A stretch of DNA of 32,776 nucleotides, from positions 1 through 32,776 of the IMG/VR virus record IMGVR_UViG_3300032516_004471; one strand, written 5' to 3'. Of this stretch, positions 2,329 to 25,336 are shown one piece after another. This stretch comes from a virus. The notes under the pieces are model-generated. The model did not search any database and was not told the DNA's origin. It saw nothing but the letters and a program-made list of their open reading frames with translations. Within the stretch, counting starts at the first letter, position 1. Each line of letters opens with the position of its first letter. The position numbers and the translations under genes were made by a program.

Positions 2329-2618
2329 ACGAGGTAAAAGTGTGCTTCTTCTTCACCGATGCGGGGTTGGTGCCATGCAGCTGCCACATTGTAGGCGCTC
2401 ATGTGGTCCCAGATGACGCCGGAGAGTTGGTGTTTCACTCCGCCCTCGCCCAGAAGGACGCGGTGAACAGTGCGTTGTTGGATATGATGTGCGAAATGTC
2501 ACAGTGCGGGAGGTGCGAGTACCTGGTGGGATGCGAGTCCCATGAACCCAGTACCGATGCTTGCGCGGCACACCTGCTGTCCGAAGCCGAGCGCAGGGTT
2601 GAAGGGAATAAGGTATGA
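2325..2618 (+). CDS. Small Cys-rich hypothetical protein
   Basis: A 97-aa protein whose ATG at 2325 overlaps the stop of the preceding methyltransferase (ATGA), suggesting translational coupling. It contains VPCSCHIV near the N-terminus and CEMSQCGRCEYLVGC in the middle, spacing that could bind zinc. I recognise no family. It begins a string of small Cys-rich proteins running to 8036. Confidence 0.6.
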   Translation: MNEVKVCFFFTDAGLVPCSCHIVGAHVVPDDAGELVFHSALAQKDAVNSALLDMMCEMSQCGRCEYLVGCESHEPSTDACAAHLLSEAERRVEGNKV

Positions 2619-2848
2619 AGTGCCAAAGATGCGATAGGGATGTGCCGTATGTTATGTGTCCACAGGGCCATGCCATAGAAGCCCCCTGCCCCTCCTGCAA
2701 GGAGCATGAGAAGGTGGAGGGCGTGCTTGCCGCCGCGATAATTGCGGCTACCGGAAAAGATGTCACAGTTGAAAAGGTTATCGAAATGGCACGGCAGGTT
2801 AATAATGAACTCGAAGCCCGCCGCTCCGCCAGTGGTGGGAAAGGGTGA
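2615..2848 (+). CDS. Small zinc-ribbon protein ending in SASGGKG
   Basis: A 77-aa protein coupled to its neighbour by an ATGA overlap at 2615. It opens with MKCQRCDRDVPYVMCPQGH and then APCPSCKEH, that is CxxC, C and CxxC groups typical of a zinc ribbon. The rest is a short helical region (VEKVIEMARQVNNELEARR). The opening resembles the proteins starting at 3648 (CERCHGEIPHVECPHC), 5775 and 6249, so it looks like a member of a local paralogous family. Its last residues (RRSASGGKG) are encoded by the repeated junction at 2821-2856. Function unknown. Confidence 0.6.
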   Translation: MKCQRCDRDVPYVMCPQGHAIEAPCPSCKEHEKVEGVLAAAIIAATGKDVTVEKVIEMARQVNNELEARRSASGGKG

Positions 2849-2856
2849 TGGGATGG
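2821..2856 (+). repeat. Junction repeat, copy 1
   Basis: The first of four near-identical segments that carry the end of one gene, its stop, a purine-rich ribosome site and the next ATG. The shared core is TGGTGGGAAAGGGTG followed by A(A/T)GGGATG. This copy differs from copies 2 and 3 at two positions (CAGTGG and GTGATG). It ends the gene at 2615 and starts the gene at 2853. Confidence 0.85.
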
Positions 2857-3419
2857 AAGAAATAATCATGCGCGAGTCGCCATTGGCCGCGAGTCTAAAA
2901 AGTGTGGATGGTTGGGTTTCAAGGAATGGTTTCTATTTTGGGACCGACGAGGGCGCGGCACGGTACGATGGTTGCACTCATGTTAAATGCATGAAGTGCG
3001 GCCTGCCCACGCCCAAAAGTCATCTTTACTGCTCCAAGTGTTCGTCTGATATGTCGCGGGAAAAGTACCTTGAAATGCCGCGTCTGGAATGGGACGGCGA
3101 GGCAATGATATATTCCCACACTCGCGACAAGTATTATTGCGACATTGAACAGATATGCGATGAACTGCAAGACGAGAGCGGGACGGACACGCTTGACAGT
3201 CTGCAACTGGTAATTTGCGAGCCAACATTCGGAAGCGAGATATGCGCCGACCATTTCGCTGACGAGCTTCCCGAAGACGGGGAAGTACCCGATCAACTGT
3301 TGGATGCTATTGACGAATTCAACAAAGCGGTAAGAGTCGCGGGTCCGCTATCATGGCATCCAGGGAAGTACGCGCTGTGCATCCCCCGCTCCGTCAATGG
3401 TGAAGGGAGGAAGGTATGA
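2853..3419 (+). CDS. Hypothetical protein with a central zinc ribbon
   Basis: The 188-aa protein starts at the ATG that ends junction repeat copy 1. The frame is open further upstream, but that part overlaps the preceding gene. It contains CTHVKCMKCGLPTPKS and HLYCSKC near residues 43-65, a probable CxxC...CxxC zinc ribbon. An acidic part follows, with ICDELQDESG, LQLVICEPTFG and ADELPEDGEVP. I do not recognise a named family. The tail overlaps the next ATG by four bases (ATGA). Confidence 0.65.
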   Translation: MEEIIMRESPLAASLKSVDGWVSRNGFYFGTDEGAARYDGCTHVKCMKCGLPTPKSHLYCSKCSSDMSREKYLEMPRLEWDGEAMIYSHTRDKYYCDIEQICDELQDESGTDTLDSLQLVICEPTFGSEICADHFADELPEDGEVPDQLLDAIDEFNKAVRVAGPLSWHPGKYALCIPRSVNGEGRKV

Positions 3420-3643
3420 CATACGACTCTCCCAATCCCAACCATCCCGACTGCAAAAGGCATCGGTGGCAGTTGGTACAAAACCCTACCATACGATTGG
3501 CGTATCGCGTCTGGTGTCAGAACTGTGGGTTGGGGTCTGAATACGATGTGCTTATCAGCCAAGACGATAAACCCGCACTAAAAAGGCGGCTTATCAAAAG
3601 CGTACCGCGCCGTCGCCGCTCCGCCACTGGTGGGAAAGGGTGA
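3416..3643 (+). CDS. Small basic Cys-containing protein ending in SATGGKG
   Basis: 75 aa, started by an ATGA overlap with the preceding gene. It carries HPDCKRHRWQ and VWCQNCGLG, which together could form a C...H...CxxC zinc site, and a very basic tail (KSVPRRRRSATGGKG). The last residues are encoded by junction repeat copy 2. No family recognised. Confidence 0.6.
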   Translation: MTYDSPNPNHPDCKRHRWQLVQNPTIRLAYRVWCQNCGLGSEYDVLISQDDKPALKRRLIKSVPRRRRSATGGKG

Positions 3644-3651
3644 AGGGATGG
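3616..3651 (+). repeat. Junction repeat, copy 2
   Basis: Matches copy 3 (4132-4167) over about 35 of 36 bases. It supplies the RSATGGKG tail and stop of the gene at 3416, plus the ribosome site and ATG of the gene at 3648. Confidence 0.88.
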
Positions 3652-3938
3652 AATGCGAAAGATGCCACGGCGAAATACCGCATGTGGAATGCCCGCATTG
3701 CTTTGCATGTAATGATATTCCTTGCGATAGAGAGGCGATTGATAACGCGCTAAAATTATTATTGCAGAAATATACAAAACTTACTGGCGGTTACTGGTGC
3801 GAATCGGAACGGTTGTATGGCAAGGCTCAAGATGCCATCAAGGCGGGCCGAGGGATGGGAATATCGCCCAAATTGTTGCTTGCGATTACCGAGGCTGTTT
3901 TGTCTATTCGCCCCGCTCGCGAAGTGAAGGAGGGATGA
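3648..3938 (+). CDS. Zinc-ribbon protein, CERCHGEIPHV family
   Basis: A 96-aa protein beginning at the ATG that closes junction repeat copy 2. It opens with CERCHGEIPHVECPHCFAC, a CxxC...CxxC pattern with the same core (hydrophobic, P, H/Y, V) as the N-termini at 2615, 5775 and 6249. The remainder is helical (IDNALKLLLQKYTKL, LLLAITEAVLSI). The likely role is nucleic-acid or protein binding, inferred only from the ribbon. Its stop overlaps the next ATG (ATGA at 3935). Confidence 0.6.
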   Translation: MECERCHGEIPHVECPHCFACNDIPCDREAIDNALKLLLQKYTKLTGGYWCESERLYGKAQDAIKAGRGMGISPKLLLAITEAVLSIRPAREVKEG

Positions 3939-4159
3939 GTATGGTAACGGCATTGGTAGTTTTTGGATGGGTGATTGGATACATAGCGACACTGGCAAGC
4001 GCGATAGTTGAATCAAGGAAGTCGGAATCATGTGATGCCGCTGTGCGACTTCCAGAAGTGTGTATCTGGCTGGTGTTACTGTGGCCGTTATTCGGATGTA
4101 TGGCCCTCGCGTTCTGTTTGGCAGACCATACCCGCTCCGCCACTGGTGGGAAAGGGTGA
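3935..4159 (+). CDS. Small membrane protein, two predicted TM segments
   Basis: A 74-aa product from the ATGA overlap at 3935. It has two hydrophobic stretches, VTALVVFGWVIGYIATLA (about residues 4-21) and VCIWLVLLWPLFGCMALAF (about 46-64), separated by a charged loop. The C-terminus HTRSATGGKG is encoded by junction repeat copy 3. It is the only membrane protein among the zinc-ribbon genes. Function unknown; an anti-defence or superinfection-exclusion role is possible but unsupported. Confidence 0.55.
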   Translation: MSMVTALVVFGWVIGYIATLASAIVESRKSESCDAAVRLPEVCIWLVLLWPLFGCMALAFCLADHTRSATGGKG

Positions 4160-4167
4160 AGGGATGA
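4132..4167 (+). repeat. Junction repeat, copy 3
   Basis: Almost identical to copy 2. It joins the end of the membrane-protein gene (3935) to the ATG of the gene at 4164. Confidence 0.88.
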
Positions 4168-4379
4168 AGGTTGTATTCGTAAAACGAACCCGCAAGAAGA
4201 GCGGCCCGTACTATGTGTCGCTTGATATCTATCACCAGAGTTTTATGGTGGGGCCATATTGGGATACCAAGACAGAGGCTAATTGGTACGCAAACAATTT
4301 GCGGGTTGCACTGAAAAAGATTGTAACCCCCATCAAGGAGGGCGAGTCTGATGATAAAACCACTGGTGGGAAAGGGTGA
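4164..4379 (+). CDS. Small basic hypothetical protein ending in TTGGKG
   Basis: 71 aa. The ATG at 4164 is supplied by junction repeat copy 3. The sequence (MKVVFVKRTRKKSGPYYVSL, WDTKTEANWYANNLRVALKK) looks like a small beta-alpha protein with a basic start and a single helix at the end. It has no Cys, unlike its neighbours. The tail (TPIKEGESDDKTTGGKG) is made of two repeated modules: the CCCCATCAAGGAG module at 4328 and junction repeat copy 4. No family recognised. Confidence 0.55.
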   Translation: MKVVFVKRTRKKSGPYYVSLDIYHQSFMVGPYWDTKTEANWYANNLRVALKKIVTPIKEGESDDKTTGGKG

Positions 4380-4387
4380 AGGGATGG
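4360..4387 (+). repeat. Junction repeat, copy 4 (shorter)
   Basis: Shares the 28 bases from CCACTGGTGGG to GGGATGG with copies 2 and 3 but lacks the upstream CCGCTCCG part. It ends the gene at 4164 and starts the gene at 4384. Confidence 0.85.
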
Positions 4388-4683
4388 ATACACTTGGTGG
4401 GATCATAGAAAAGTTCAAACCGTTTGGTATCCATCCATTGGATATTGAAATGAACGAATTGTGGCCAGAGATCAGCCGCAAAATCACCCGTATTCGCAAG
4501 GACCGTAAATGCGGGTGGTGCGCTAAAATGATACCCAAGGGCGAATGGATGCGTATTGCGTCAGGTAAGACGGAGCGCAGGGAGATGGTTTCAACCTATT
4601 ACTGCATGGATTGTATGCTTGAATTTGCAGATGGCTACCCCCGTTCCACCCCCATCAAGGAGTCCCCCGATGCGCGGCCGTAA
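4384..4683 (+). CDS. Small protein with a CxxC...CxxC zinc site, tail PIKESPDARP
   Basis: A 99-aa protein starting at the ATG from junction repeat copy 4. RKCGWCAKMIPKG and YYCMDCMLEF give a two-CxxC zinc site spaced about 30 residues apart, as in small treble-clef or ribbon proteins. Its last 10 residues, PIKESPDARP, are also the last residues of the Dam-like gene ending at 6262, because both ends lie in the same 65-bp direct repeat. It overlaps the mini-ORF at 4670 by 14 bases. Confidence 0.6.
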   Translation: MDTLGGIIEKFKPFGIHPLDIEMNELWPEISRKITRIRKDRKCGWCAKMIPKGEWMRIASGKTERREMVSTYYCMDCMLEFADGYPRSTPIKESPDARP

Positions 4684-4714
4684 AAACTGCGGGGCCGATG
4701 TGGTCCATGTGCCG
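4650..4714 (+). repeat. 65-bp direct repeat, left copy
   Basis: Matches 6229-6293 with 2 mismatches in 65 bases. It holds CCCCATCAAGGAG, the C-terminal codons of the upstream gene, and the ATG and ADVVHV codons of a mini-ORF. The two copies lie about 1.58 kb apart and flank two DNA methyltransferase genes. Confidence 0.9.
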
Positions 4715-4744
4715 GGTGCGAACTTTAAGGAACCCAAGCCATGA
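4670..4744 (+). CDS. 24-aa mini-ORF, ADVVHV family (copy 1)
   Basis: The ATG at 4670 follows AAGGAG with good spacing. The stop overlaps the next ATG (ATGA at 4741). The peptide is MRGRKNCGADVVHVPGANFK plus four residues. A closely related peptide is encoded at 6249 and a more distant one at 5775. This copy keeps only one Cys (the positions of CTNC in the 6249 copy read GANF), so a zinc ribbon is incomplete here. It may be a decayed member or a leader that couples translation of the methyltransferase. Confidence 0.45.
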   Translation: MRGRKNCGADVVHVPGANFKEPKP

Positions 4745-5778
4745 TACATATTGGTGATGCATTAACCATCCTAAAAACATTACCGAATCAATCGGTAAAC
4801 TGTTGCGTTACGAGTCCGCCTTATTGGGGCTTGCGAGATTATGGTGTTGATGGGCAGATAGGGCTTGAAAGAACCCCGGAAGAATATGTTTCGCAACTGG
4901 TGGCAGTGTTCGCCGAAGTGCGGCGGGTGTTGCGGGATGACGGGACGCTGTGGCTCAACCTGGGCGATTCGTACAACGCCTATAACGGGAATCGGGGAGA
5001 CTCCAAGGGCGTTCAAAAGAACGCGCACGAGATTATGCCGGACCCTCCTGGTGGATACGGTCTATCATGCAAGACGCTCAAGCCCAAAGACCTCGTGGGA
5101 ATCCCATGGCGCTTGGCGTTTGCTTTGCAAGCCGACGGATGGTATCTGCGCCAGGACATCATTTGGCACAAACCAAATCCAATGCCAGAGAGCGTCACCG
5201 ATCGATGCACCAAGGCGCATGAGTATATCTTTATGTTGGCGAAGCGTCCGAGGTACTACTACGACGCGGAGGCGATAAAGGAACCGGCAATTTATTTTGA
5301 TGACGACAGAAAAAGCAGGGCGGCAGAATGTCATAAATCCATGCCAACAGGTGAGAGAAACGGTATCCGCCCCCTTTACAAAGACGCCCTAAGTTACGAT
5401 GGAAAGCACAGCGACAAACAGCGCGGCCACGGACGTCGCCACGCTGGATTTAATGACAGATGGGATGCAATGAATAAAAAAGGACAATGCAGTTCCATGA
5501 GAAACAAACGCTCCGTCTGGACCGTTCCCACGCATGGATTCAAGGAGGCGCATTTTGCAACATTTCCGGAAAAACTAATCGTGCCCTGCATCCTGGCAGG
5601 GTGCCCCGAAGGCGGAACCGTGCTCGATCCGTTCTTTGGCGCGGGAACCGTTGGGGTTGTTGCCAAGAAGTGCAACCGTAAATACATCGGAATCGAATTG
5701 AATCCCAAATATGCAAAGATGGCACAGGATAGAATCGACAATATCGGAGACATGTTATTTTCGGAGGCCACCCCATGA
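4741..5778 (+). CDS. DNA methyltransferase, N6/N4 type (beta-class order)
   Basis: The 345-aa protein has the catalytic motif IV CVTSPPYWGLRDYG at about residues 22-35 near the N-terminus. The SAM-binding motif VLDPFFGAGTVG comes near residue 300, followed by YIGIELNPKYAKMAQDRI. This order (catalytic first, SAM last) is that of beta-class enzymes modifying N4-cytosine or N6-adenine; the SPPY form is common in N4-cytosine enzymes. The region between them (roughly 180-275) holds the likely target-recognition part. It starts by ATGA overlap with a mini-ORF and ends the same way. Probable role: protecting phage DNA from host restriction. No cognate restriction enzyme is recognised nearby. Confidence 0.9.
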   Translation: MIHIGDALTILKTLPNQSVNCCVTSPPYWGLRDYGVDGQIGLERTPEEYVSQLVAVFAEVRRVLRDDGTLWLNLGDSYNAYNGNRGDSKGVQKNAHEIMPDPPGGYGLSCKTLKPKDLVGIPWRLAFALQADGWYLRQDIIWHKPNPMPESVTDRCTKAHEYIFMLAKRPRYYYDAEAIKEPAIYFDDDRKSRAAECHKSMPTGERNGIRPLYKDALSYDGKHSDKQRGHGRRHAGFNDRWDAMNKKGQCSSMRNKRSVWTVPTHGFKEAHFATFPEKLIVPCILAGCPEGGTVLDPFFGAGTVGVVAKKCNRKYIGIELNPKYAKMAQDRIDNIGDMLFSEATP

Positions 5779-5852
5779 ACCAATCCCAATGCCCCCGCTG
5801 CGAGGCCGATGTGGTGCATGTGACGGGTCAGAAATGTAGGGAGGGCAAGTGA
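5775..5852 (+). CDS. 25-aa mini-ORF, ADVVHV family (copy 2, divergent)
   Basis: It begins by ATGA overlap at 5775 and ends by ATGA overlap at 5852. The peptide opens MNQSQCPRCEADVVHVTGQK and then C, giving CxxC plus a third Cys. The ADVVHV core and the DNA around it (GGCCGATGTGGT) match the mini-ORFs at 4670 and 6249. Its MNQS start is also the start of the gene at 6320. Conservation of the peptide across three sites, each wedged between genes, argues for a real product or a conserved coupling element. Confidence 0.5.
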   Translation: MNQSQCPRCEADVVHVTGQKCREGK

Positions 5853-6262
5853 TGAACCGCGTTGCGTTTTCTTCTATTACAGACCATTGGGAAACCCCGG
5901 TGGAGTTGTACCGATCGCTAAATAAAGAGTTCCACTTCAACTACGATCCGTGCCCCCGGCACCCTGATTGCGATGGGCTCAATACGAAATGGGGATCCCG
6001 AACCTTCTGCAACCCGCCGTACAGCGGCATCAAAGCATGGGCCGCGAAGGCGCACGAAGAAGCGCAGTCCGGAAAAACGGTTGTGCTCCTAATCCCAAGT
6101 CGTACCGATACCCGTTGGTGGCACGCCCATGTTATGACCGCCAACGAAATCCGCTTCTGCCGCGGAAGGCTCAAATTCGGCGGTGCGAAAAATAGTGCGC
6201 CGTTCCCTTCATGTATCGCCATCTGGAACCCCATCAAGGAGTCCCCCGATGCCCGGCCGTAA
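5852..6262 (+). CDS. Phage Dam-like DNA N6-adenine methyltransferase
   Basis: The 136-aa protein shows the compact phage adenine methyltransferase pattern: DHWETPVELYRSL at the N-terminus, FNYDPCPRHPDCDG, then the catalytic FCNPPYSGIKAWA (NPPY near residue 54) and VVLLIPSRTDTRWWH, ending in FGGAKNSAPFPSCIAIW. This matches the DNA N-6-adenine-methyltransferase (Dam) family found in phages, here near its short end. The start is the ATG at 5852, overlapping the mini-ORF stop; a GTG at 5849 is less likely. The tail NPIKESPDARP comes from the 65-bp repeat. It probably methylates adenine in phage DNA. Confidence 0.88.
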   Translation: MNRVAFSSITDHWETPVELYRSLNKEFHFNYDPCPRHPDCDGLNTKWGSRTFCNPPYSGIKAWAAKAHEEAQSGKTVVLLIPSRTDTRWWHAHVMTANEIRFCRGRLKFGGAKNSAPFPSCIAIWNPIKESPDARP

Positions 6263-6293
6263 AACCTGCGGGGCCGATGTGGTCCATGTGCCG
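6229..6293 (+). repeat. 65-bp direct repeat, right copy
   Basis: Second copy of the segment at 4650-4714 (2 mismatches). It again joins the end of a real gene (Dam-like) to a mini-ORF. Recombination between the copies would remove both methyltransferase genes cleanly and leave a functional junction. Confidence 0.9.
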
Positions 6294-6323
6294 TGTACGA
6301 ATTGTAAAGGTGTTACTCCATGA
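6249..6323 (+). CDS. 24-aa mini-ORF, ADVVHV family (copy 3)
   Basis: ATG at 6249 after AAGGAG; the stop overlaps the ATG at 6320. The peptide starts MPGRKTCGADVVHVPCTNCK. Its Cys spacing (C, then CxxC) could complete a small zinc knuckle. It is nearly identical to the 4670 copy up to VHVP, then regains two Cys that copy lacks. Confidence 0.48.
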   Translation: MPGRKTCGADVVHVPCTNCKGVTP

Positions 6324-6844
6324 ACCAATCACGGGTGACGGCGGACATGGTAGAAATCGTAGTCGCCAACCATTTTAACTGGCGGCAAAACCTAATAGTT
6401 CCCAATGTCCATTGGGGCTTGGGGCTTGAATATGAATGCGACATGGTTATAGTGCGGCCCTCGGGCTATGTTATCGAGGTCGAAATCAAAGTAACCGCCG
6501 CCGATTTAAGGCGGGACCGAAACAAGCGCAAGTGGCAATTTATAAACAGCGCCAACCTTTATCGGACCAACCAATTATTTAAGCTCCGATACTTTGCGGT
6601 GCCGGTGGAATTGGCCGGCGAGATTAACAACATCCCCGAAGGTTGCGGTTTTATTGTCGCCGATGTCTTGGCCGAGGATGGGACCGTAAACAGGTATGAT
6701 GGCTGCTGCAAAATCGTCAAGCAATCCCGGGTGAACAAACAAGCGTTGCCGATTTCCCCCGCTAAATGGGACAACCTGCAACGACTGGCGGCGATGCGGA
6801 TATGGTCGCTAAAAGAACACATGATGGCAATGAGGAGAAAATAA
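6320..6844 (+). CDS. PD-(D/E)XK-like nuclease fold protein (MmcB-like)
   Basis: The 174-aa protein has LEYECDMVIVRPSGY followed by VIEVEIKVTAADLRRD. An Asp (D41), then E55-x-K57 about 14 residues later, is the catalytic core of the PD-(D/E)XK nuclease superfamily. A following helix with basic residues and YRTNQLFKLRYFAVP fits the second half of that fold. It resembles MmcB-type repair proteins and small phage nucleases in layout. The actual substrate is unknown; repair, recombination or attack on host DNA are all possible. It starts by ATGA overlap. Confidence 0.65.
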   Translation: MNQSRVTADMVEIVVANHFNWRQNLIVPNVHWGLGLEYECDMVIVRPSGYVIEVEIKVTAADLRRDRNKRKWQFINSANLYRTNQLFKLRYFAVPVELAGEINNIPEGCGFIVADVLAEDGTVNRYDGCCKIVKQSRVNKQALPISPAKWDNLQRLAAMRIWSLKEHMMAMRRK

Positions 6845-8955: not shown

Positions 8956-9167
8956 GCCATATGCCAAAACATACCAACCGCGTACGATGCCATATGAAGC
9001 CTCGACACCCCGCCACAGCCAACCCCGTACCCATACCCACATCCCCCACGCCCATGCCAACACAACACCACTGTCAAAAATCCTCACCAGGGGTGCAGCA
9101 TCAATTCCTACGGGAAAAATATGAGGCGGTATATACCCCTCCCTGCGTATATCCCTGGTTCATCCCC

Positions 9168-9191
9168 ATTGGTTACAAGTCTAAAGGGGGG
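9168..9191 (+). repeat. Second junction repeat (GGTTAYAAGTCTAAAGGG), copy 1
   Basis: Matches 9597-9617 over most of its length (both encode PIGYKSKG) and, less closely, 10552-10574. At the other two sites this sequence is a gene end plus the ribosome site of the next gene, so here it marks a probable former gene border. Confidence 0.7.
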
Positions 9192-9234
9192 TGTGACAAG
9201 GCGGGTTGCAATGGTGGGTGGGGCGCGGTGGACC

Positions 9235-9262
9235 GGGCTGGGGATGCCCGGGGTGGTGGGGG
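9235..9262 (+). other. G-quadruplex motif 1
   Basis: Four G-runs (GGG, GGGG, GGGG, GGGGG) separated by loops of 2, 6 and 4 bases on the + strand, just before the DUF1937 coding part. Confidence 0.5.
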
Positions 9263-9272
9263 TACGGAGGTG

Positions 9273-9620
9273 GTGAGTGGGGTGGTGTACCTGGCGAGTC
9301 CGTATAGTCACAGGTTGGGGCGGGTGAGGGAGGCGAGGTATCGGGTGGTGATGGCGGTGGCGGCGGGGATGATACGGCAGGGGATGTGTGTATATAGTCC
9401 GATTGTGTACAGTCACCAGATGGCGGGGGCGGTGGGTGGGGATTGGGGTAGTTGGCGGGTGCACGACCTGGGGATGTTGGCGGTATCGAGTGTGGTGTGC
9501 GTACTGTGTTTGGAGGGGTGGAAGGAGTCGGAGGGGGTGAGGCGTGAGATAGAGGCGGCGGTATCCCTGGGGATACGGGTGCAGTATATGTTTCCGATAG
9601 GTTATAAGTCTAAAGGGTAA
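9273..9620 (+). CDS. DUF1937 family protein (deoxyribosyltransferase-like fold)
   Basis: From VVYLASPYSHRLGRVREARY on, the protein matches the DUF1937 layout: an N-terminal YLASPYSH strand-loop, RYRVVMAVAAGMIRQGMCVY, SPIVYSHQMA, a Trp-rich middle (GDWGSWRVHDLGML), then VCVLCLEGWKESEGVRREIE. The family is related to nucleoside 2-deoxyribosyltransferases, and GWKESEGVRREIE corresponds to the usual catalytic-glutamate region. Its role in phages is uncertain; nucleotide salvage or modification is plausible. The start is unsure. GTG at 9273 overlaps a preceding stop (GTGA) and puts the conserved strand at residue 5; GTG at 9282 or the open frame back to 8952 are alternatives. Very G-rich coding strand. 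Confidence 0.7.
   Translation: MSGVVYLASPYSHRLGRVREARYRVVMAVAAGMIRQGMCVYSPIVYSHQMAGAVGGDWGSWRVHDLGMLAVSSVVCVLCLEGWKESEGVRREIEAAVSLGIRVQYMFPIGYKSKG
9425..9448 (+). other. G-quadruplex motif 2
   Basis: GGGGG, GGG, GGGG and GGGG with loops of 4, 1 and 3 bases, inside the DUF1937 coding sequence on the sense strand. The short loops make it a better candidate than motif 1. Confidence 0.55.
9597..9617 (+). repeat. Second junction repeat, copy 2
   Basis: Encodes the IGYKSKG end of the DUF1937 gene and supplies AAAGGG, 7 bases before the ATG at 9625. Confidence 0.75.
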
Positions 9621-9624
9621 TGGT

Positions 9625-10352: not shown

Positions 10353-10568
10353 ATGCCGTGGGCGTGGGTACTGCTGGCGTTCGTATGGTTCGCAATAGCG
10401 GTGATGTTTTTGAGGTATCGGGACCAGGTGCGGTTCCGCGAGGAATCCGAAGCCGCGTTCCGCCACGGCTGGGACCGGAAGATGCCCGCGCGGGACACCT
10501 GGTGGCGGCGGTGGTATGTCGCGGCGAGGAATGCTTGCCGGGCGTGGATGCATAGGTTAGGAATCTAA
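10353..10568 (+). CDS. Small single-pass membrane protein
   Basis: 71 aa from ATG 10353, directly after the preceding gene. MPWAWVLLAFVWFAIAVMFL is one N-terminal membrane segment, followed by a charged cytoplasmic-type part (RYRDQVRFREESEAAFRHGW, MPARDTWWRRW). Holin-like or spanin-like roles are imaginable for its size, but nothing shows either. Its end lies in the second junction repeat, copy 3. Confidence 0.5.
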   Translation: MPWAWVLLAFVWFAIAVMFLRYRDQVRFREESEAAFRHGWDRKMPARDTWWRRWYVAARNACRAWMHRLGI

Positions 10569-10574
10569 AGGGGG
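10552..10574 (+). repeat. Second junction repeat, copy 3 (diverged)
   Basis: ATAGGTTAGGAATCTAAAGG and three more G. Here the TAA inside it is the stop of the membrane-protein gene, in a different frame from copy 2, and AAAGGGGG serves the acetyltransferase start. Confidence 0.6.
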
Positions 10575-10580
10575 ATGAAT

Positions 10581-11510: not shown

Positions 11511-12142
11511 TGGCAAAGCGTAAATCTGTTCCCGCGCCCGGGCCCAAGGATTTCAACCCGGTGATGATCCCCATTGCCGATCTCAACAAAGCCGAATGGA
11601 ATTACAAGACCGATGACGAGGCCATGGCCGCCAAGCTCGCCGCCAACATCAAACGCAATGGAATCCTGCAGGCGTCCGTGGTATACGAAGCCGGGGGTAA
11701 GATTATTGTATTGGACGGCAATCACCGGCTCGATGCGTACCGCAAACTCGGTATCAAGGCGGCGCCGTGCCTGAATATGGGCCCCATATCCGAGGCCGCG
11801 GCCAAACGCATAGCGATCGAACTCAACGAGACGCACTTCGAGTCCGACCCCATGCGGCTGGCGGAAACCATTAAAGAACTCCTGGCCGAATTCGACGACC
11901 TCGAAGTGACATTCCCGTTTACCGGAGATCAGATACAGGGGTTCGGGGATCTTATCGACTCAAAGCTCGATTGGAACGATGGCGAAGCCGCCGACGCGGA
12001 GCCGCAGATCGATAGGGCTGCTGAACTCAACAAAAAATGGAAGGTGAAAACAGGGGATATGTTTGGTTTGGGCGCGTTCACGGTTTGCCCCAAGTGCGGG
12101 AAGGTTCACAATCTCGACAAGGGGGTTGCAAATGAAATGTGA
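11510..12142 (+). CDS. ParB/Srx-fold protein, split from a methyltransferase partner
   Basis: The 210-aa protein has MIPIADLNKAEWNYKTDDEA, AAKLAANIKRNGILQASVVY and VLDGNHRLDAYRKLGIKAAP, the ParB N-terminal nuclease-like fold with the GNHR motif near residue 71. In many phages this domain is fused to a DNA methyltransferase through a linker like KVKTGD...HRLLCGDST. Here the protein stops soon after WKVKTGDMFGLGAF with a short CPKCGKVHN zinc knuckle, and HRLLCGDST reappears in the next two genes. It overlaps the first methyltransferase by 11 bases and probably acts with both as a complex. Confidence 0.75.
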   Translation: MAKRKSVPAPGPKDFNPVMIPIADLNKAEWNYKTDDEAMAAKLAANIKRNGILQASVVYEAGGKIIVLDGNHRLDAYRKLGIKAAPCLNMGPISEAAAKRIAIELNETHFESDPMRLAETIKELLAEFDDLEVTFPFTGDQIQGFGDLIDSKLDWNDGEAADAEPQIDRAAELNKKWKVKTGDMFGLGAFTVCPKCGKVHNLDKGVANEM

Positions 12143-12851
12143 ATGCGGTCACGAATTTAAACCGAAGATGCAATACCGGCATAGATTGTTATGCGGTGAC
12201 TCGACCAATGCGGAGGATGTGGCGAGGGTGATGGGGGGGGGGAAGGCGGCGGCGGTGCTTTGTGACCCCCCGTATGGTCAAAACCAAAAAGGGGTTGAGC
12301 ATGATTCTCCCGAAGAACATTCCGCTCTCATGAGCGGGGCAATTGCCGCGCTTCCAATTGAAAACGGAGTGATTGCTGCGTTTCAGTCTCCGCGCACTTT
12401 TCACGCATGGACAGACCCGGCAAGGGCGCGTGGGTTTGTGTTTGAGAGAATGCTATGGCTCTACAAGGCCGCACAATGCACCTTCCCGTGGCGGGGATGG
12501 ATTCTGACTTCAGAATCCATCCCCGTTTGTAGTATTGGAAAGCCTCAATGGCAAGATGTTCACCCGTTTTCACACGACTGTTATTATCTGTCGGAGGTTA
12601 GTGGTGAATTGGATCAAGACTCCGGGTGGCACGGGAGCATTAAGCCATTGTCGGTTGTTTCCGATCTGATGAGGCGAATATGTCCGTCTGGGGCAGTGGT
12701 GTTTGACGGATTCCTCGGCTCCGGCACCACACTTGTCGCCTGTGAAAATTTGGGTCGCAGATGCCGCGCCATGGAAATATCTCCCAATTGCTGCGCCATA
12801 ATTTTACAGAGGATGCGGGATGCATTTGGTGTTGTCGGAGTTAAAATATGA
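12132..12851 (+). CDS. DNA methyltransferase 1 of the ParB-linked pair
   Basis: 239 aa. It starts MKCECGHEF then QYRHRLLCGDSTNAEDV, a leader shared with the next gene. Catalytic CDPPYG lies at about residues 44-49, and the SAM motif GFLGSGTTLVACENLGRRC near 195, followed by MEISPNCCAII. This is the N6/N4-type beta-class order. The middle is divergent. A G10 run encodes the Gly stretch just before the catalytic motif (12233-12242), and a perfect 16-bp hairpin encodes RGWILTSESIPV (12492-12525). It is probably a DNA adenine or N4-cytosine methylase that protects phage DNA. ATG 12132 is the only start that leaves the shared leader intact. Confidence 0.82.
   Translation: MKCECGHEFKPKMQYRHRLLCGDSTNAEDVARVMGGGKAAAVLCDPPYGQNQKGVEHDSPEEHSALMSGAIAALPIENGVIAAFQSPRTFHAWTDPARARGFVFERMLWLYKAAQCTFPWRGWILTSESIPVCSIGKPQWQDVHPFSHDCYYLSEVSGELDQDSGWHGSIKPLSVVSDLMRRICPSGAVVFDGFLGSGTTLVACENLGRRCRAMEISPNCCAIILQRMRDAFGVVGVKI
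12233..12242 (+). repeat. Homopolymeric G10 tract
   Basis: Ten consecutive G, inside the methyltransferase 1 gene about 7 codons before the catalytic DPPYG motif. The frame is intact in this copy. Such tracts are prone to slippage during replication and also to sequencing error. Confidence 0.85.
12492..12525. repeat. Perfect 16-bp hairpin inside methyltransferase 1
   Basis: CGGGGATGGATTCTGA, a 2-base CT loop, then its exact reverse complement. It is fully inside the coding sequence and in frame. Confidence 0.92.
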
Positions 12852-13636
12852 AATGTTCCTGTGGCCATACATTCGATCCTGAAATTCAATACCGGCACCG
12901 CCTGCTTTGTGGGGACAGCACCAACGCCCAAGTATGTGATGCATTTATGGCAGGCACCAAGGCCACGCTGGTGTTCACCGACCCGCCCTATGGCGTCAGC
13001 ATCGGCAAAAAAAATGTGATGCTAAACACCTTCCAGAAGGCTGGAAGGTGTTTAGGCAACTTGGACATGGATGATATGCCGCCCAAGGAATTGGGTGAAA
13101 TGTTATTGAAGGTTTTTAAACTGTGGCGCGGATATATGGCGGACGACTGTTCTGTGTTCGTGTGCTCTCCGCAGGGCGGAGGTCTCGGTATGATGATGAT
13201 GATGATGATGGATGCAGGCTTGGAGGTGCGGCACATTCTGAATTGGATTAAAAATTGTCCGACCTTCAGTATGGGCCGTTTGGATTATGATTATCAGCAT
13301 GAACCAATTCTATTCACATGGACCAAAACCCATAAGCGCAAACACGATGGCGCGTTTCGGACTTCGCTGTGGTCCGTGGATAAGCCCCATGCCAACAAGG
13401 AACACCCCACGATGAAACCAATTGAACTTCCTACCTGCGCGATTCTCAACCATACCGATACCGGCGATGTGGTCGTGGACATGTTTGGCGGCAGCGGTAC
13501 TACCATGGTGGCGTCCGAGAACACAAAGCGATCATGCCGTATGGTGGAAATTGATCCCAATTTCTGCGCCGTGATATTGGAAAGAATGACAACTGCATTC
13601 CCAAATATTAAAACAGAAAAACTCCCCAGGAAATAA
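12848..13636 (+). CDS. DNA methyltransferase 2 of the ParB-linked pair
   Basis: 262 aa, coupled by ATGA overlap at 12848. The leader MKCSCGHTF then IQYRHRLLCGDSTNAQV parallels methyltransferase 1. Catalytic TDPPYGVSIG is at the same position (D45). The SAM motif VVDMFGGSGTTMVASENTKR lies near 210, followed by VEIDPNFCAVILERM. Its centre, with WIKNCPTFSMGRLDYDYQHE and PILFTWTKTHKRKHDG, is the usual pattern of phage ParB-linked adenine or N4-cytosine methylases. A 15-bp perfect hairpin (13022-13055) and a run of seven Met codons (13190-13210) interrupt otherwise conserved sequence. Confidence 0.87.
   Translation: MKCSCGHTFDPEIQYRHRLLCGDSTNAQVCDAFMAGTKATLVFTDPPYGVSIGKKNVMLNTFQKAGRCLGNLDMDDMPPKELGEMLLKVFKLWRGYMADDCSVFVCSPQGGGLGMMMMMMMDAGLEVRHILNWIKNCPTFSMGRLDYDYQHEPILFTWTKTHKRKHDGAFRTSLWSVDKPHANKEHPTMKPIELPTCAILNHTDTGDVVVDMFGGSGTTMVASENTKRSCRMVEIDPNFCAVILERMTTAFPNIKTEKLPRK
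13022..13055. repeat. Perfect 15-bp hairpin inside methyltransferase 2
   Basis: CTAAACACCTTCCAG, loop AAGG, then its exact reverse complement. It encodes LNTFQKAGRCLG, 10-20 residues after the catalytic motif. The sequence is unrelated to the hairpin in methyltransferase 1. Confidence 0.92.
13190..13210 (+). repeat. (ATG)7 trinucleotide repeat
   Basis: Seven tandem ATG codons giving seven Met in a row in methyltransferase 2 (GLG then Met run then DAG). Length change would alter the Met count without breaking the frame. Confidence 0.9.
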
Positions 13637-18824: not shown

Positions 18825-19301
18825 ATGTCGAAGAAATCGGAACTCATGGATCTGCTGCGCAAGAACGGCGTTGTCGCCATCCACAACGGGATGAGCACCA
18901 GCGAACTCAAGCTCGCGTGGGACAAGCACCAGGCCGATATGAAGGCGCGTGAGGAAGGCAAGAAGGAAGAAGAACGCCTCGCCAAGATTGCCGAGAATCA
19001 CCCCGCGCCCGCGCCCGTCCCCGCGCCCGTCCCCGCGCCCGTCCCTGCGCCCGTACCCGCGCCTGCCCCCGCGCATGCGTCTGCCCCCGAGACCGTCCCG
19101 GCTTACCGGACCGTCCCCGTTGCCCGCAAGCAGCGCGTCGAGGTGAAAAACGGTACCATCGTGACGCCCGATGATATGCGGCTTATCGACCCGCTGGATG
19201 TCATGGTCCGCCGGGTCGTGGGCAGCGTGATGGTGGTGATCTTCAAGAAGGGCCCCAAGGTCCAGTACAACACCCGGACATTCATGAAGATCAATTCGTA
19301 A
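18825..19301 (+). CDS. Virion-region protein with PAPV repeat linker
   Basis: 158 aa preceded by AAAGGGGATTTCAG, which also precedes the gene at 22354. The N-terminus (SKKSELMDLLRKNGVVAIHN then GMSTSELKLAW) resembles a short SAP/LEM-like or HeH helix-extended-helix motif. A charged helix leads into a Pro-rich PAPV repeat (about residues 60-85), then a conserved-looking C-terminus (DDMRLIDPLDVMVRRVVGSV, MVVIFKKGPKVQYNTRTFMK). The PAPV segment would be an extended linker. Position between the Mu F-like protein and the protease suggests a head role. No named family. Confidence 0.6.
   Translation: MSKKSELMDLLRKNGVVAIHNGMSTSELKLAWDKHQADMKAREEGKKEEERLAKIAENHPAPAPVPAPVPAPVPAPVPAPAPAHASAPETVPAYRTVPVARKQRVEVKNGTIVTPDDMRLIDPLDVMVRRVVGSVMVVIFKKGPKVQYNTRTFMKINS
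19001..19076 (+). repeat. 12-bp tandem repeat encoding PAPV
   Basis: Units of CCCGCGCCCGTC, with small variations, repeat about five to six times and encode an extended Pro-Ala-Pro-Val spacer. Copy number may vary between relatives. Confidence 0.85.
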
Positions 19302-22353: not shown

Positions 22354-23178
22354 ATGGCCGAATTACTGCTCAAGGTTGGGGATTCCGGTCGTTTCAAGGA
22401 CGGTGATATTATTCTCGCCCACAACGACGCCCGAATTCTTGATGTCCACGCGCAACACATTTGCGACCCGCGACCGGTGGGATTTAACCGGTACGGGTTG
22501 CGGACCAAGAACGGGATGGTGGAAAAGTATTTGCAGGAAACGGCCGTGTATCGGTTCGAACGCATTTCAAGGACCGAAGTGGCGCGGGTGAATCTGCTTA
22601 CCGGGCAGGGTGACATTGTGGACGACAATCCAAACATGCACGGTGAAAGTATCTTTGTCGAAGCATTCATTGCCCGGCAGACCAAATTTCAGAATCACAT
22701 GATATTCGGTTCTCCCGGAAAAGAGGTATGGTACGGCGGCAGGCGTGAAATCAATGACGGGGTTATCGCCACGGTATGGAACAACATCGAAGAAAACACG
22801 AAGCACCGCAAGGCTGACCATCGTTTATGGCCCATGACCGAGCGCGAAAAGATGGTATTTCTTGGCGTATCCGTTACTGATTTCGACAATGCACGGGCTG
22901 ACGAACTGGTCGCCCCGAAATTAAAGTACGGATTTAACCCGCACATTAACATTGCGGAACTGAAGAAGATGAAGAAAAAGGATGCTCAAAACTTCTTGAA
23001 AGAGCATCAGAAAACAGTCGAGGAAAATACCCTGCACCGGAGAAAACAGTTTGTGAACTATCGTGAAATTGTTTCCACCGGAACAGTAAAAGATATTGTC
23101 AATCCAGAAAAAGCGGTTGACATTCGTGACATTGCATCCCCTTATGATACTGGTGCCATTGTCAAGGCAAAGGAATAG
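22354..23178 (+). CDS. Unknown structural-region protein
   Basis: 274 aa, preceded by AAGGGGATTTCA. It includes VGDSGRFKDGDIILAHNDAR, a motif-like WYGGRREINDGVIATVWNNI, a Lys-rich segment (IAELKKMKKKDAQNFLKEHQ) and VNPEKAVDIRDIASPYDTGA near the end. I do not recognise a family. Its position between two proteins sharing a decoration-type domain suggests a head accessory or assembly role. Confidence 0.55.
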   Translation: MAELLLKVGDSGRFKDGDIILAHNDARILDVHAQHICDPRPVGFNRYGLRTKNGMVEKYLQETAVYRFERISRTEVARVNLLTGQGDIVDDNPNMHGESIFVEAFIARQTKFQNHMIFGSPGKEVWYGGRREINDGVIATVWNNIEENTKHRKADHRLWPMTEREKMVFLGVSVTDFDNARADELVAPKLKYGFNPHINIAELKKMKKKDAQNFLKEHQKTVEENTLHRRKQFVNYREIVSTGTVKDIVNPEKAVDIRDIASPYDTGAIVKAKE

Positions 23179-23179
23179 C

Positions 23180-25336
23180 ATGGCGCAGGTAACAAAGTCC
23201 ATCGGGACGGGGGTGGGCAGGGATTATTCTACTGTTACGGCATGGCACGCCGACCTTGATAGTGATGTTATTTATGACGCTGGCGATATAGCGGTTGGTG
23301 AACTGCACAATGATTCCGTGTTCAATGAAGTCGTGACATTTGACAAGGGCGACACGATTGGACTTGCATCGGCAAGGATAACCGTTGCGGCCGCAGACCG
23401 TCATACCGGCATCGCGGACACGGGCGTGAGATGGCATAAGACCGGGAACAGTTGCATAATCCTGCTGAACGAAATCCCGTTGACGGTTGAATTCGTAGAG
23501 TTTTACGCATGGGGTTCCGTGGGCGGATATTTTTATTGCATTGAAGGGACATTGAGCGGGAATCCAGTAATCGTAAGGAATTGCATTTTCCATGATGAGG
23601 TCAATACGATGGGAGGTGCGTTGCCAAGCCCGGAGAACGCAAATTACGGTGGCGGGGTATTCCCCGGAACCGACGGGGCCTTTATAATCCAGAACAATAT
23701 TTTTTACAGGATGCAAACCGCCGTCACGGATTATGCCGGAACGGAAGCGCACAAACTGTTGAATAACACATCGGTTGATACATGGTATTCGTCGTATTTT
23801 ACCTTTAATATGGGCACTCCGTCGCCAATCGTTGATACCATAAACAACATCGCCCTTGAGTTTGACCCCAACGATTTCAGCGCTATTGGATTTGACCTTT
23901 GCAACGAATCGGCGGCGAGTAAAAACAATCTGTCCGGTGACGATTCGGCGCCCGGACCCGGTTCGAAAATGTACGAAACCCAAGAAAAAGAATTCATTTC
24001 CTGCACCGTTGGTTCAGAGGACTATCACCTAAATGACGGTGCAACTTCGGAGGGGGCCGGTGCTGACATTGGAACTACCAATGATGTAAATATTGCCTGC
24101 GATGGTTGGGACCGGGCTGATTTCGACGAAGATTGGGACATCGGCGCGGCGGCATTCACGGACCCGATTATTGATTCAATTACGCCCGCTTTCGGAACGC
24201 GCAAGGGCGGAACTCCGACAACCATTGCCGGGCATCGTTTCGTCGCCGGTATGACCGTTGTTTTCAATAACGATGCATCCGCGTCTGATGTTGTCATTGT
24301 TGATGACCATACCATCACGGCCGTAACGCCCGAGTATAACGCGGGCGACTACGATGTGAATGTAAGCGACGGAGAGCGCCCCGATGCGGTTCTTGTCGAG
24401 GGGTATGAGTTCAGAAGGATAATGCAAATTGACACGATAACGCCGGACGAAGGCACCGAAAAGGGTGGTACTTCAGTTGTCGTTCGCGGTGATGCATTCG
24501 ACGATACGGACGGAGTTGATGGGGCGAAGGTGTTTTTCGGTTCAACTGAAGGCACCGTAACCGACATCCCAAGTGAGTACGAAATAGATGTCACCGTCCC
24601 GGCCCATGCGATAGGATTGGTTGACATCCGTGTTTTGAACGCGGACTTGACCGAAGTGACCGCAAGTGATGCGTTCACATTCACCGATGACCCGGCTTGG
24701 CCCGTCGAATTGGATTCCATTGACCCGGAAATCGGTTCCGTGGTCGGGGGAACGCTTGTCACCTTGAGCGGAAAGAATTTTGTGGACGGAGCCGAGGTTT
24801 ATTTCGGTGGGGTCGAATCCGCTGATGTGACCTTTGTTGACGATGATGAAGTCACGGCCATAACTCCGGCCGGAACTGTCGGGCTTGTCGATGTTCGAAT
24901 TGTAAACCCGGAACTCGACGAGGCGACGCTTGAGGATGCGTTTGAATACGAGGCCATGCCCGAACCCATCCCGAAAGAGGATGTCACTTTTGCCCGTGGC
25001 AGGAATCAGTCCGGGACATTCAACGGGGCGAGGCTGGTTGGTGATACAGGGGTACAGGAAATCGGCATATATCCGTGGGTGTTCATGGAAGACCAGACCA
25101 GATTGAATTTTACCTTCAAATTGAACGGCACATTGGTTGATGATATTGAAATCGCCGTTCAAGGATGCTTGCATGGTGGTCAGGCGGACCCGAAAACGCT
25201 TGCCGTTGCAAATCCGACAAATGGCGTGACCAGTTATCTTGTATCCGGGGTGGTATATGACCGGGTTCGTGCGGTCGTGACCAAGCTGGCAAATGCGGGC
25301 AAAGGTTCACAAGTCATTGTTTCCGGGAGAAGGTAA
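23180..25336 (+). CDS. Large surface protein with IPT/TIG domains and shared C-terminal domain
   Basis: 718 aa from ATG 23180 (AAAGGA upstream). Residues 1-325 are Asn/Gly-rich and beta-helix-like (GNPVIVRNCIFHDEVN, GAFIIQNNIFYRMQTAVTDY), as in parallel beta-helix fibres. Three IPT/TIG immunoglobulin-like domains follow: IIDSITPAFGTRKGGTPTTI (about 329), QIDTITPDEGTEKGGTSVVV (about 416) and ELDSIDPEIGSVVGGTLVTL (about 510). The last about 75 residues match the small protein at 21990. It is probably a fibre or capsid decoration that binds host surface glycans, with the C-terminal domain as the shared anchoring or trimerising unit. Confidence 0.7.
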   Translation: MAQVTKSIGTGVGRDYSTVTAWHADLDSDVIYDAGDIAVGELHNDSVFNEVVTFDKGDTIGLASARITVAAADRHTGIADTGVRWHKTGNSCIILLNEIPLTVEFVEFYAWGSVGGYFYCIEGTLSGNPVIVRNCIFHDEVNTMGGALPSPENANYGGGVFPGTDGAFIIQNNIFYRMQTAVTDYAGTEAHKLLNNTSVDTWYSSYFTFNMGTPSPIVDTINNIALEFDPNDFSAIGFDLCNESAASKNNLSGDDSAPGPGSKMYETQEKEFISCTVGSEDYHLNDGATSEGAGADIGTTNDVNIACDGWDRADFDEDWDIGAAAFTDPIIDSITPAFGTRKGGTPTTIAGHRFVAGMTVVFNNDASASDVVIVDDHTITAVTPEYNAGDYDVNVSDGERPDAVLVEGYEFRRIMQIDTITPDEGTEKGGTSVVVRGDAFDDTDGVDGAKVFFGSTEGTVTDIPSEYEIDVTVPAHAIGLVDIRVLNADLTEVTASDAFTFTDDPAWPVELDSIDPEIGSVVGGTLVTLSGKNFVDGAEVYFGGVESADVTFVDDDEVTAITPAGTVGLVDVRIVNPELDEATLEDAFEYEAMPEPIPKEDVTFARGRNQSGTFNGARLVGDTGVQEIGIYPWVFMEDQTRLNFTFKLNGTLVDDIEIAVQGCLHGGQADPKTLAVANPTNGVTSYLVSGVVYDRVRAVVTKLANAGKGSQVIVSGRR

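Follow-up and report, generated by a model that had tools for sequence, protein, structure and literature searches.

Phage genomes are mosaics with their seams at gene borders, and it is an old question whether these seams reflect short border sequences held in common or random joining followed by selection (PMC3233612, PMC3029335, as far as the available parts of both papers go). In the same sources, short conserved boundary sequences at the gene borders of lambdoid and other phages were proposed to be sites of homologous recombination. One example concerns the Cluster I mycobacteriophage Island3, in which the last 18 residues of gene 68 resemble those of gene 67, and recombination between stretches of about 50 bp was put forward in the accessible text of PMC3029335. 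Re-checking the records, we found that 65 nt of the ends of Island3 genes 67 and 68 align, that Brujita has one such end (gene 66), and that the 20 bases after Brujita's end are those after Island3 gene 68. Start-Associated Sequences (SAS) of Cluster K phages are described in the portion available of PMC3203893 as 13-nt elements present in 11-19 copies, mostly after gaps of >50 bp. Finally, the PeSL elements of T4-type phages, according to excerpts of two reports (PMC4503421, PMC3950731), combine a promoter and a stem-loop between small genes and are thought to mediate shuffling.

The window analyzed here, a whole stretch of 32,776 bases, belongs to a tailed phage, with recognisable families of terminase, portal, head and tail proteins from 14 kb onward. 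Small + strand genes are found between 2.3 and 8 kb and include DNA methyltransferases and an HNH nuclease. Across positions 2819-4389, four copies of a sequence that we call border A link small genes, the next starts lying at 2853, 3648, 4164 and 4384 (Table 1). Each copy spans 27-40 bases and contains, in frame, the last codons of the upstream gene (RSATGGKG or a variant), its stop codon, a ribosome site and the next start.

Like the gene ends of Island3 and Brujita, border A gives adjoining unrelated genes a common in-frame 3' end at the DNA level. The anatomy is the same, and in the mycobacteriophages the outcome, gene gain or loss, is visible. However, the Island3/Brujita case involves two copies whose alignment ends around the stop codon, whereas border A has four to five copies that include the next start, and is accompanied by a second border type. 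As with phage boundary sequences, short DNA common to the borders of unrelated genes is found here; boundary sequences, on the other hand, are compared between genomes, whereas border A recurs inside a single genome and no other was found to carry it. By analogy, our best reading is that border A would work like these boundary sequences and like the Island3/Brujita ends. The SAS, as described in the part of the source at hand, likewise adjoin the starts of small genes that are unrelated to one another and lie in the non-virion half of the genome. Unlike SAS, border A reaches over 27-40 nt into the upstream gene, has a 4-nt gap, is clustered, and is not confined to the position of the ribosome site; the 13-bp SAS consensus GGGATAGGAGCCC has two matches in the window (<=2 mismatches) versus 0.85 expected, neither of them at a border. 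The PeSL elements, in the excerpts mentioned, resemble border A in being repeated between small genes. On the + strand of the border A copies we found no sigma-70-like site, a type that may not be the one used by this phage or its host, and no terminator-like site, and the copies fold no better than shuffles, unlike the PeSL stem-loop. A comparable multi-copy border array was not found in the literature searched, which included few subscription papers, and one may still have been published.

Table 1. Positions of the borders and of the small genes that they join
Feature	Position	Strand	Description
Virus record IMGVR_UViG_3300032516_004471	1-32,776		whole IMG/VR record, 32,776 bases; possibly a fragment of a genome
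Gene	2853-3419	+	between borders; phrog_11053 (E 4.6e-52), no known function; zinc-ribbon-like cysteines
Gene	3416-3643	+	small basic protein, 75 aa; tail coded by border
Gene	3648-3938	+	small cysteine-rich protein, 96 aa; N-terminus related to 2615-2848
Gene	3941-4159	+	small hydrophobic protein, judged from its sequence probably membrane, 72 aa; tail coded by border
Gene	4164-4379	+	small protein, 71 aa; tail absent in the L005 relative
Gene	4384-4683	+	small cysteine-rich protein, phrog_16244 (E 2.3e-9)
Border A copy 1	2819-2858	+	end of 2615-2848 (RRSASGGKG-stop), ribosome site, start of 2853-3419
Border A copy 2	3614-3653	+	end of 3416-3643 (RRSATGGKG-stop), ribosome site, start of 3648-3938
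Border A copy 3	4130-4169 (exact with copy 2: 4132-4166)	+	end of 3941-4159 (RSATGGKG-stop), ribosome site, start of 4164-4379
Border A copy 4	4350-4389 (exact with copy 2: 4360-4388)	+	end of 4164-4379 (TTGGKG-stop), ribosome site, start of 4384-4683
Border A copy 5, diverged	3386-3418	+	end of 2853-3419 (PRSVNGEGRKV-stop) and start of 3416-3643, same register
Border B copy 1	4650-4728	+	end of 4384-4683 (PIKESPDARP-stop), ribosome site, first part of tiny ORF 4670-4744
Border B copy 2	6229-6307	+	end of Dam-like gene 5852-6262 (PIKESPDARP-stop), ribosome site, first part of tiny ORF 6249-6323
Border B left part	4326-4340	+	~20 nt upstream of border A copy 4; 15 nt exact with 4648-4662
Border D (weak)	2594-2619	+	joint 2325-2618 / 2615-2848, similar to the 3416 joint

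Border A at four gene junctions

A preliminary description of this DNA had reported a four-copy junction repeat of stop, ribosome site and start, and the repeat is real: its 23-nt core matches four times with <=3 mismatches, versus 0.00 expected from 100 shuffles. Exact identity among copies 2 to 4 extends over 35 nt (3616/4132), 29 nt (3624/4360) and 27 nt (4140/4360), and copy 1 differs from copy 2 at two of 40 positions. The upstream frame closes in all four copies with the (S/T)GGKG-stop end described before, here always TGA and in the same register, and the next ATG follows 4 nt past the stop, preceded by AGGG (TGGG in copy 1). The joint before 3941 is not of type A.

When the 46 start junctions of the window were compared with one another, 11 pairs scored at least 12, while 100 shifted sets gave a mean of 0.29 and a maximum of 2 such pairs; the single best null score (49) exceeded the observed one (35), which we attribute to overlap between the shifted windows of neighbouring genes. 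Exact repeats of at least 18 nt that include both stop and start at two junctions form three pairs in the window. The same scan of 35 other sequences (summed length 0.71 Mb) gave none except an 852-nt repeat found at either end of the Andromeda record; it is blind to elements below this length, SAS and the L020 pair described below among them, and to border B, whose tiny ORF is too short for the rule. A candidate G-quadruplex at the ribosome site was rejected: of 174 two-quartet patterns, 11 begin at a junction, versus about 8 expected by length share.

The genes between the copies had been called unrelated beforehand, and for most of those flanking border A alignment revealed no relation once the common tails were set aside. 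That view does not extend to 2615-2848 and 3648-3938, whose N-termini have a related zinc-ribbon stretch (score 66, reached by none of 200 shuffles). GC3 is 0.48-0.58 for the genes from 2615 to 4683, and most packaging and head genes, though not all, have values of 0.70-0.82; since the picture outside the array is mixed (GC3 of 0.55-0.56 in 22354-25336), this contrast is weak support. No recombinase gene was recognised among the window genes scanned, in a record that is possibly a fragment. Rfam and tRNA searches of the window gave no matches, and a plasmid search gave no near match.

Copied DNA and conserved peptide

The nine codons CGC TCC GCC ACT GGT GGG AAA GGG TGA recur in three copies, for which the chance of equal codons, given the codon use of the phage, is ~3e-9, a figure that treats the differing Thr/Ser codon of copy 1 as equal and that rises at most 16-fold when this codon is omitted. 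When the final five codons are taken, in all four copies, the corresponding chance is ~4e-7, and agreement among the copies extends to the start codon and to the bases that follow the stop. Because codon identity exceeds what the peptide would require, this shows that border A is copied DNA, more than a conserved peptide.

The ORF at 9160-9351 of one collected locus (L005) is a distant relative of 4164-4379 (score 60, reached by none of 5000 shuffles, the best of which scored 51; 38% identity). Apart from an ES pair it has no match to the tail TPIKEGESDDKTTGGKG, and the protein stops where the border-coded tail begins, a comparison that rests on this single relative at 38% identity. A profile search of IMG/VR viral contigs with gene 4164-4379 returned 40 candidate stretches, none of which was confirmed, and a degenerate DNA search of IMG/VR for the peptide end returned one stretch, which was unrelated.

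A fifth copy and further border types

The diverged copy 5 scored 30, compared with a maximum of 25 in 5000 random windows and of 29 in 60 whole-window shuffles. Its right half resembles border D, the joint before 2615. Border D scores 28 against the 3416 joint; among 5000 random windows, which were allowed to fall on that joint, 4 score as high. The two copies of border B extend over 79 nt and are 92% identical. Given the left part of border B before copy 4 of border A and the D-like right half of copy 5, two borders can be read as hybrids: judged from their sequences, 3386-3418 and 4326-4388 look like hybrids of two border types, as crossovers inside borders would leave, a likeness that is only suggestive. 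The tiny ORFs 4670-4744, 5775-5852 and 6249-6323, of 24-25 codons, have related CxxC..ADVVHV sequences, and each overlaps the start of the next gene.

Border A and the phrog_11053 gene in other genomes

Exact and degenerate searches for border A in IMG/VR viral contigs gave nothing related, the degenerate one returning 13 stretches with one match each and none related; the records nearest the window's own possibly lie outside this search. Border A was not found by an exact search of GTDB genome contigs. INPHARED blastn with 61 bases around copy 2 returned 12 records, all with E of about 5, which we take as chance. Among 45 collected loci, the 16-nt core of border A was matched exactly only in four pieces of the window itself. 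A relative sought through the terminase, L006 (58% identity), starts 4.1 kb before the terminase and stops short of the region. At the sensitivity used, border A was found in no other genome, and no gene exchange at border A was seen.

The phrog_11053 gene (2853-3419) has relatives at 32-46% identity in 13 other loci. A tblastn comparison of 29 window genes with these loci and two whole phage records gave few matches at E <=0.01: besides 2853-3419, only the methyltransferases (4741, 5852, 12848), a portion of the HNH gene and 9977, the last matched over 28 residues. The small genes beside 2853-3419 had no match at this threshold in those loci, the L005 relative of 4164 having been seen by alignment. 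Other phages carry different small genes around the phrog_11053 gene; these loci are too distant, and their differing gene content therefore says nothing about border A.

In one of these loci, L020, a 16-nt repeat lies at both borders of the phrog_11053 gene (5972-5987 and 6537-6552), in register with both start codons, and in L024 an 11-nt pair surrounds the gene. The L020 and L024 pairs each stand above every random pair from the same locus; for the remaining 11 of the 13 loci, at least 18 of about 280-300 random pairs reached the best border match. The L020 pair is a hint that repeated borders occur elsewhere. A 15-nt repeat (CGGGAGGCCAAATGA) at 3129 and 3538 of L032 looks like a ribosome site and start.

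Possible origin and role of the borders

In our view, this part of the non-virion region of the phage is probably a hot spot for small accessory genes, where whole genes would be gained and lost by recombination within border A copies. Such copies may spread and take effect when one border recombines with another: in a single genome this would remove whole genes, and between co-infecting phages it would insert or swap them. With stop, ribosome site and start contained in the common stretch, every crossover product would restore them and leave both flanking genes readable. Recombination, the enzymes involved and any selection for recombination are what we infer. Against this reading, a length of 27-35 nt is short for RecA-type recombination, and, as noted above, the scan of window genes recognised no recombinase.

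The earlier proposal that standardised borders let small genes shuffle stands in part. It is favoured by a DNA-level repeat that includes stop, ribosome site and start, by mostly unrelated genes, hybrid-looking borders, the tail absent in L005 and other small genes around 2853-3419 elsewhere, but nothing shows that the border is kept for that use. Passive scars of past recombination are a safer reading than a border kept for exchange, and the two explain the data equally well. A selected cassette system of interchangeable frame-safe borders (A, B and perhaps D) kept by the phage is quite unlikely. If it were true, a small gene ending in one border and starting from another could be inserted, deleted or swapped while its neighbours stay intact, and the cost would be a border-coded tail on each protein. 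Several frame-safe border copies and apparent hybrids in one genome make the homologous version of the old question on phage mosaicism testable at a single locus.

Other explanations do without exchange at the borders. It is conceivable, if unlikely, that gene ends were copied in ordinary segment duplications, the gene bodies having diverged or been replaced, and that the borders have no role in exchange. The partial relation of 2615 and 3648, and the part of the same tiny ORF carried by both B copies, agree with such duplication; however, each repeat ends on one side at the start codon or no more than a few bases from it, and on the other side it extends over about 10 codons at most, and most genes between the copies show no relation. 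Since every copy contains the ribosome site and the next start, 4 nt past the stop, one might also think of a common translation signal comparable to the Cluster K SAS, to which a factor of the phage or host binds or which is tuned for stop-start coupling. We regard this as distinctly unlikely: identity reaches about 34 nt upstream of the start, well past the ribosome site, the copies are confined to consecutive genes in one 1.6-kb stretch, seven borders have no unusual RNA structure (z -0.54 to +1.30, no better than shuffles), and the SAS consensus is not enriched in the window.

That (S/T)GGKG is a functional C-terminal peptide tag, selected on several proteins, would account for four tails in the same frame with nearly the same peptide. 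This appears very improbable in view of codons that agree beyond chance, non-coding bases and a start that agree too, the single unrelated stretch found for the peptide end in IMG/VR and the L005 relative without the tail. An assembly artefact of a single uncultured record is hardly credible. The border is indeed known from one metagenomic record, with no second genome found that carries it, but a usual read is much longer than these repeats, sequence differences set one copy and the fifth copy apart, and the frames are open through all joints. Recombination within border A copies is the reading that we prefer.

Other repeats in the window

A repeat with copies about 80% alike (GGTTAnnAnTCTAAAGGG) lies near gene ends and starts at 9167-9193, 9596-9622 and 10551-10577, coding for IGYKSKG at two places; it is perhaps a further border type. 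At 12063-13636, after a ParB-like gene, two adjoining methyltransferase genes open with related zinc-ribbon stretches (..QYRHRLLCGDSTNA..), and ATG repeats at 13190-13213 produce a row of methionines inside the second of them, 12848-13636. Tandem repeats of 12 nt at 19001-19096, proline- and alanine-rich, lie inside ORF 18825-19301.
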